Origin: Tabrizicola fusiformis
GTDB lineage: Bacteria; Pseudomonadota; Alphaproteobacteria; Rhodobacterales; Rhodobacteraceae
Reading direction: 5' to 3'
Assembly (NCBI RefSeq): GCF_013328815.1
Contig: NZ_JABUHN010000007.1
Span: forward strand, 62,001 to 126,000
Length of the DNA: 64,000 bases
Shown: piece after piece, positions 62,916-64,000 of the stretch
How positions within the stretch are numbered: the stretch's first letter is position 1
Layout of the letters: every line of letters starts with the position of its first letter
The notes under the pieces: generated by a model
Databases searched by the model: none
What the model was told of the DNA's origin: nothing
The model's input: the letters and a program-made list of their open reading frames with translations, nothing else
Position numbers and translations under genes: made by a program

Positions 62916-63671
62916 ATGACGGATGGCAGGCTGCGGCTGGGTGTGAACATCGACCATGTGGCGACGGTGCGCAATGCGCGCGGCTCGGCTTGGCCCGATC
63001 CGCTGCGGGCGGCGCTGCTGGCCGAAGCAGCGGGGGCCGATGGCATCACCGCCCATCTGCGCGAAGACCGCCGCCACATCCGCGACGCCGACATGGAGGC
63101 GCTGCGCGCCGGGATCGGCATTCCGCTGAACTTCGAATGCGCCGCGACCGAAGAGATGGCCGCCATCGTGCTGCGGCTGCGGCCCCATGCGGTCTGCCTC
63201 GTGCCGGAAAAGCGCGAAGAGCGCACGACCGAGGGCGGACTTGACGTGGCGGGCGACGAAAACCGGCTGGCGCATTACATCGCGCCGCTGCGCGATGCCG
63301 GGTGCCGGGTGTCGATGTTCATCGGCCATGATGCGCGCCAGATCGAAGCATCGGCCCGGATCGGCGCGGCGGTGGTGGAACTGCACACCGGCCATTATTC
63401 CGACCTGCACGCCGAAGGCCGTCTGGCCGAGGCCGAGGCGGAGCTGGCCGCGCTGGTGAAAGGGGCGGCGCTGGCGCATTCGCTGGGGCTTGAGGTTCAC
63501 GCCGGTCATGGGCTGACCTATGACAATGTGGCGCCCATTGCCGCCATTCCCGAGCTGCGCGAGCTGAACATCGGGCATTTCCTGATCGGCGAGGCGATCT
63601 TCATGGGGCTGGAAGATGCCATCGGCGAAATGCGCCGCCGCATGGATGAGGCGCGGGGAACCGGGGCGTGA
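62916..63671 (+). CDS. pdxJ: Pyridoxine 5'-phosphate synthase
   Basis: A 251-residue PdxJ of the DXP-dependent vitamin B6 pathway, joining 3-amino-2-oxopropyl phosphate with DXP. Motifs: [18 protein letters not shown] at the start (catalytic His and phosphate-binding residues), [29 protein letters not shown] and [17 protein letters not shown] 62916 is preferred to 62856, which lies inside the previous gene; GGAGAGG is about eight bases before it. Followed immediately by three palindromes and acpS. Confidence 0.96.
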
Positions 63672-63672
63672 C

Positions 63673-63740
63673 CCCGGAATTTTCCAAAGTTCCGGGCAAA
63701 ATTCTTCGAAGAGTTTTGCAAATTCCTTGCAAGGAATTTG
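63673..63740. repeat. Three contiguous palindromes between pdxJ and acpS
   Basis: 63673-63696 (CCCGGAATTTTCCAAAGTTCCGGG type, one T-G pair), 63697-63718 (CAAAATTCTTCGAAGAGTTTTG, one T-G pair) and 63719-63740 (CAAATTCCTTGCAAGGAATTTG, perfect). They abut with no spacer and fill almost the whole gap. The third contains AAGGAA (63731-63736), which is 11 bases before the acpS ATG and may be its ribosome site. Confidence 0.8.
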
Positions 63741-63747
63741 GCGCCCC

Positions 63748-64000
63748 ATGATCCTCGGCATCGGCAGCGACCTGTGCAATATCGAGCGGATCGAGGCCAC
63801 GCTGGCCCGGCACGGCGACCGTTTCCGCAACCGCGTCTTCACCGAGCGCGAGCAGCGCAAGGCCGAAAGCCGCCCGATGGCCGTTGCTGCCACCTATGCC
63901 AAGCGCTGGGCGGCCAAGGAAGCCTGCTCCAAGGCGTTGGGCACCGGACTGCGGATGGGAATTTCGTGGAGGGACATGGCGGTTTCCAACCTGCGCACCG
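63748..64000 (+). CDS. acpS: Holo-[acyl-carrier-protein] synthase, N-terminal part (cut by right edge)
   Basis: The first 84 residues of AcpS, which attaches phosphopantetheine from CoA to acyl carrier protein. The metal and catalytic residues are visible: D8 in [15 protein letters not shown] and E58 in [14 protein letters not shown]. The frame is open to the window end. Its ATG follows a palindrome that contains the only AAGGAA-like ribosome site. The pdxJ-acpS order is common in alphaproteobacteria, sharing early biosynthetic functions but not a pathway. Confidence 0.93.

Follow-up and report, generated by a model that had tools for sequence, protein, structure and literature searches.

REP-like 22-nucleotide palindromes dispersed behind stop codons in genomes of the Rhodobacteraceae

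Introduction

In Bradyrhizobium japonicum, a repetitive element named Br-REP1 was reported to consist of three palindromes that give rise to three stem-loops, and to reside in the overlapping 3'-UTRs of convergent genes (PMC5082802). The excerpted account further indicates that the central stem of that element is found at about 200 intergenic sites, and that its abundance differs strongly between relatives (PMC5082802). Within the portions of the literature drawn on here, Br-REP1 is the closest published analogue that was found for the elements described below. Classical REP and BIME sequences, as presented in the relevant portion of their description, are headed by GT(A/G)G and accompanied by a Y1 transposase (RAYT) (PMC2817692). 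REPs in Escherichia coli reduce translation when they are located less than 16 nt from a stop codon, a finding restated in the excerpted paper on RepRanger (PMC12306157).

Model phototrophs and common marine bacteria both belong to the Rhodobacteraceae. The window analysed here is a stretch of 64,000 nt from one member of that family, Tabrizicola fusiformis; the genome from which it comes is referred to as the own genome. At the end of the window, in the spacer between pdxJ and acpS, lies a set of palindromes that proved to be one copy of a dispersed, REP-like family. No description of this 22-nt family was recognised in the consulted portions of the openly licensed literature, including two candidate papers (PMC5107571 and PMC13155455).

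The junction between pdxJ and acpS

The gene pdxJ (pyridoxine 5'-phosphate synthase; 62916-63671 on the forward strand, with its start as given by the gene caller) was identified with the NCBIfam model PRK05265, and acpS (from 63748 to 64000 on the same strand, running past the window end) with the Pfam ACPS model PF01648 (E 3.6e-16); as judged by these model matches, both gene names are correct. Upstream of pdxJ are two tandem DUF2062 genes (PF09835; 61384-62112 and 62180-62881, E 2.7e-33 and 1.7e-35), which are apparently paralogues.

A first-pass annotation of this DNA had described three palindromes, 24, 22 and 22 bases long, at 63673-63740, two of them with a single T-G pair and the third perfect, and a direct reading of the sequence bore out each of these points, with zero bases between the three. 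The first palindrome (CCCGGAATTTTCCAAAGTTCCGGG, 63673-63696, 24 nt, one T-G pair) can also be read as a 22-nt unit, CCGGAATTTTCCAAAGTTCCGG (63674-63695), that is enclosed by a flanking C and G, so that one extra G precedes the second palindrome. Unit 2 (CAAAATTCTTCGAAGAGTTTTG, 63697-63718) likewise has T-G at one pair, and unit 3 (CAAATTCCTTGCAAGGAATTTG, 63719-63740) is a perfect palindrome; all three are given on the forward strand. The stop codon of pdxJ (63669-63671) ends 2 nt before unit 1, and the ATG of acpS occupies 63748-63750.

RNA folding of the region predicts three hairpins and, enclosing them, a 7-bp outer stem (energy -44.8 kcal/mol; z -4.9, with 0 of 200 shuffles as good). The arms of that possible outer stem, both on the forward strand, lie at 63663-63669, which includes the T of the pdxJ stop codon, and at 63741-63747, directly before the acpS ATG. 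For 63400-64000, a comparison against Rfam returned no RNA family at E values up to 1. Palindromes 2 and 3, in their consensus forms, are each present a single time in the 64-kb window, and gave 0 matches at up to 3 mismatches in 100 shuffles. Hairpins with 9-bp arms and at most one mismatch number 529 per 464 kb of the own genome, versus 408 in one Markov simulation; a lone hairpin of such size is thus unremarkable, and what draws attention is that the palindromes abut as a set and recur elsewhere.

A dispersed family in the own genome

A search for other copies established that recurrence: the region is one copy of a dispersed family with 59 units in the own genome. Searching that genome with the region itself produced 47 matches, some of which correspond to both strands of one place, and the self-complementary pattern CAARNTYNTTNNAANRANYTTG then identified 59 places (reversed control, 0). 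Although the pattern demands no pairing, perfect pairing over nine pairs is seen in 56 of the 59 units, and the full 59 fall within 39 elements, each with one to three units. Looser-looking hairpin relatives with loops of 5-6 nt also occur in 464 kb sampled evenly from the own genome (L187:2192-2246, L184:5437-5459 and L190:1585-1607), so that the pattern count may understate the size of the family.

The collection was extended to ten genomes by joining the 39 own loci to 99 loci of nine other genomes, of which 138 loci one yielded no unit; over this collection and the second mismatch set described below, L178 and L302, in neither of which a unit was found, were left out. The resulting 137 elements hold 274 units (admitted at 8 or more of 10 pairs, by a filter that partly required pairing of position 10 with position 13) and comprise 105 two-unit, 16 three-unit and 16 one-unit elements. 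Elements are built from abutting 22-nt units, usually two but ranging from one to three, each with the layout CAA-[paired, variable]-TTNNAA-[paired, variable]-TTG, and they lie close behind a stop codon. The outer CAA/TTG and the core TTNNAA are nearly invariant, part of which was fixed by the search pattern itself.

These elements are REPs in the broad sense, being present in many copies, intergenic, palindromic and without a T-rich tail. Several narrower assignments were considered and rejected. With regard to REPs associated with RAYT, the GT(A/G)G head is unenriched (within 8 nt of 13 of the 137 elements, versus 9 of 137 for a control stretch at a greater distance), and the Y1 transposase PF01797 is absent from the own genome and from 11 of 12 carriers (only G118 has one); it was found in 2 of 12 non-carrier genomes tested, versus 1 of 12 carriers. 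Intrinsic terminators were rejected because T makes up 11.6% of the 10 nt behind the elements, and a run of at least four T follows 1 of the 86 codirectional ones. Exact copies of the 20-nt consensus of Br-REP1, CCGGAATCTCGAGATTCCGG, are absent from the window, from the 39 own loci and 20 additional stretches of the own genome, and from the 274 units. An outer stem, or four-way junction, common to the whole family was likewise rejected, as the flanks of the 137 elements pair no better than those of shuffled partners (z -0.5); for the own 39 elements the corresponding z is 1.5, and 8 of the 39 have a flank stem of at least six.

Distribution across genomes

The pattern is present in 47 of 248 Rhodobacteraceae genomes (the own genome included, and with 3 hits for the reversed control over the same 248), mostly in few copies; the richest are the own genome, with 59 units, G209, with 37, and G130, with 34. 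In a sample of the class outside the family, 26 of 285 genomes had 27 matching units, one or two each, and since only 3 of those 27 are perfectly paired and the reversed control gave 8, the family is not evident in that sample. A set of 80 named pdxJ loci, together 798 kb, contributed a single additional unit, which in Fuscovulum blasticum DSM 2131 lies 9 nt downstream of a predicted stop codon, and the plasmid and phage records searched gave no match.

Within single genomes the state of the copies differs considerably. In G130 (L204-L234), CAAAATCCTTCGAAGGATTTTG accounts for 20 of the 34 pattern units and frequently has CAAAAGTTTTCGAAAACTTTTG next to it, and such near-uniform copies suggest a recent burst. 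In G144 (L275-L284 and L292) there are 14 places at up to one mismatch versus 4 exact ones, many units bearing single mismatches, and these copies are possibly a decaying set.

Observations of this kind are what would be expected of selfish repeats without a host function, spread by a mobiliser, kept palindromic through template switching (that is, through quasipalindrome correction), and found at 3' positions because insertions are tolerated there. Copy numbers vary patchily (201 of the 248 family genomes have no pattern match, against 59 units here), copies are nearly uniform within G130 and mismatch-bearing in G144, a congener (G001) has an empty site, and 4 of the 13 sites that were aligned have a relative in which the element is missing or differs in its unit number. 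We nevertheless consider this explanation unlikely, in view of how the stems themselves have changed.

Compensatory change and the difference of neighbouring units

At orthologous sites, family copies change on both sides of the stem and stay paired, as the first-pass annotation had proposed looking for in relatives. The comparisons were made between the own genome and its congeners G001 or G003, or among G001, G002 and G003 themselves; 13 groups were aligned, and the groups of L132, L117, L121 and L126 (where the element is missing or the unit number differs) were left uncounted. Over 390 pair comparisons there were 14 both-sided versus 8 one-sided stem changes, a count that also excludes the L102 trio, in which the stems have been replaced throughout, and, from L157, a shifted 20-nt unit; with both of these included, the numbers are 32 both-sided and 12 one-sided in 470 pair comparisons. 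Examples include T-A to C-G (L118/L148 and L134/L153), A-T to G-C (L131/L149) and C-G to G-C (L127/L145). As the loci had been fetched for carrying elements, these sites say nothing on how often a site is retained. At the orthologous site represented by L102, L142 and L152, the stems have been wholly replaced among three congeners and the two-hairpin layout has been kept.

The rate of change within the units further distinguishes stems from loops. Sites differ in 4.6% of stem positions (36 of 780) and 23% of loop positions (18 of 78), or in 6.9% and 27% when the L102 trio is included; stems thus differ 4-5 times less than loops, in a small loop sample (78 sites) and with comparisons that overlap. 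Correction between the arms of a palindrome does not by itself explain such a deficit, and it is this that counts against selfish repeats. In the own units, 98.7% of pairs are Watson-Crick in register versus 53% one base off (the higher value being partly by construction, given admission at 8 of 10 pairs), and the variable pairs hold at 97% versus 53% when arms are shuffled between units. The family is real, and its stems are kept paired by selection.

Units that abut do not share their arms. Identical arms were found in 0 of 137 abutting pairs, where permutation within species gave a mean of 16 and a minimum of 3 in 2000 permutations. This rule rests mainly on G130, whose two-part copies are nearly uniform (0 of 26, mean 5.9), and on the own genome (0 of 44, mean 4.0, p 0.011), the other species alone not being significant. 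Two identical palindromes in a row constitute one long palindrome, so that their avoidance argues either that the hairpins form separately or that long palindromes are disfavoured in DNA. It is tempting to generalise this into a class of transposase-independent palindromic repeats, in which perfect pairing persists amid sequence turnover because neighbours must differ, and in which 22-nt hairpins behind stop codons, unable to cross-pair with one another, would be read by a dedicated RNA- or DNA-binding factor specific for CAA...TTNNAA...TTG; we offer this proposal tentatively, and consider it rather improbable as a whole.

Placement behind stop codons

All 39 own elements are intergenic, and they occupy 0 divergent, 15 convergent and 24 codirectional gaps, where the background of 228 gaps of at least 40 nt comprises 57 divergent, 30 convergent and 141 codirectional ones. 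The 137 elements of the ten genomes divide into 86 codirectional, 44 convergent and 7 divergent cases, and these last may include calling errors, because genes were called everywhere with a codon model trained on the own genome. The 86 codirectional elements begin a median of about 7 nt behind the stop codon. In the 80 usable codirectional cases they lie nearer to the stop than under uniform placement with 15 nt before the next start left free (null 14.3; lowest of 2000 simulations, 7.2). The next start is at most 40 nt away in 45 of 83 codirectional elements, for which reason many elements are probably located inside transcription units. The placement as such could reflect where insertions are tolerated.

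Action at the RNA or the DNA level

The first-pass annotation had taken the T-G pairs, together with the palindromes, as a sign of selection on RNA structure. Of that claim, the maintenance of paired stems is upheld by the compensatory changes, and the use of the T-G pairs as a mark of RNA is not. On the sense strand of codirectional elements, a first set gave 9 G-U, 4 A-C and 7 other mismatches in 1750 pairs (p 0.27). G-U at 9 of 1750 pairs is rarer than is generally expected of RNA stems. A second set, chosen largely for mismatch-bearing copies regardless of strand, gave 15 G-U, 11 A-C and 9 other, and the sum over both sets (G-U versus A-C, 24:15, p 0.20) leans to RNA and is not significant. 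Hairpin types show a weak trend in their order relative to transcription (21:10, p 0.07), and the first and second hairpins do not differ in stability (p 0.23).

Such figures are compatible with an element that acts as DNA, either by offering double-stranded sites to a dimeric or nucleoid protein or by extruding cruciforms, for which transcription would be irrelevant. Nearly all pairs are Watson-Crick, and the similar rates of G-U and A-C are as expected under a strand-neutral constraint; the near-invariant CAA/TTG and TTNNAA resemble a recognition site (with the caveat, noted above, that the pattern partly fixed them), and folding of the pdxJ-acpS region with parameters for single-stranded DNA yields a shape identical to that of the RNA fold (z -3.8). 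Against such a role, the pairs in the middle of the unit vary freely provided that pairing holds, which is unusual for a protein site, and the tight placement behind stop codons would be unexpected from a function in DNA alone. A DNA-level element therefore seems to us possible, if on the less probable side.

The acpS ribosome site

Unit 3 does contain, as had been pointed out, the probable ribosome site of acpS: a Shine-Dalgarno-like AAGGA on the forward strand (63731-63735), putative in function, lies in its 3' arm, 12 nt before the ATG. The first-pass annotation had gone on to suggest that the third stem hides this site and so gates translation of acpS, a reading with which the predicted fold, ending directly before the ATG, would also agree. 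As a role for the element, gating fits poorly with the family and with the same junction in relatives. G001, a genome of the same genus, lacks the element and has 16 nt between pdxJ and acpS, and in G002 and G003 other sequence follows pdxJ, with no pattern unit in the 1.5 kb behind it. Of the 80 named pdxJ loci, 27 have an N-terminal motif of acpS within about 250 nt behind pdxJ, a stretch in which not one of the 80 contains a pattern unit. The junction therefore works without the element in G001 and in those 27, and the presence of a congener that lacks the element at that very position indicates that it is dispensable there. Elements ending within 12 nt of the next start are also few (6 of 83 codirectional elements overall, and 2 of 24 in the own genome), and the outer stem is not a feature of the family. 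Gating of acpS is thus very improbable as the purpose of a dispersed repeat; a local influence of unit 3 on acpS, given the AAGGA in its stem, is possible. In Rhodovulum euryhalinum (L025), the pdxJ-acpS spacer holds GGAAATTCCGGGCGAAACACGTCGAAG, which by eye faintly resembles unit remnants.

Proposed action on the upstream message

Starting from the directly observed dispersal, unit length, placement, compensatory evolution and difference of neighbouring units, we favour, with about even confidence, the reading that these dispersed intergenic palindromes of the Rhodobacteraceae are REP-like, multi-hairpin elements of mRNA ends that act on the end of the upstream message. Their most likely action, as far as sequence can suggest it, would be on the 3' end of that message and on termination of its translation, so that the elements probably tune message ends rather than acpS specifically. 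The units would be transcribed with the upstream gene and then fold into consecutive hairpins, which the terminating ribosome would encounter and which would protect the 3' end of that gene's message against 3'-5' exonucleases. By analogy with E. coli REPs less than 16 nt from a stop codon, hairpins as near to it as those at pdxJ (2 nt) may also lower the output of the upstream gene, and in an operon such as pdxJ-acpS the element would uncouple the upstream from the downstream message.

With dozens of stop codons that carry structured elements, clean compensation, and pairs of close species that differ in presence or absence, the family permits a direct test of whether REP-like elements act on mRNA ends, on translation termination or on DNA.

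Comparison with known repeats

The elements constitute a new REP-like family. In common with classical REPs, as these are presented in the portion of their description drawn on here, they are short extragenic palindromes, often clustered and with many copies per genome; they differ in that the units mostly abut without spacers (PMC2817692). They occur, moreover, in genomes without the Y1 transposase that is thought to spread classical REPs. The likeness to E. coli REPs lies in a hairpin just behind the stop codon, here at most 15 nt away in 55 of 86 codirectional elements, whereas sequences and host are different (excerpt of PMC12306157). Br-REP1 offers the nearest parallel, and its central stem begins with CCGGAAT, as does unit 1 here; its sequence is otherwise different, its hosts are Bradyrhizobium and Rhodopseudomonas, and section 15 of its account mentions neither variation of stems with compensation nor a rule that neighbours differ (PMC5082802).
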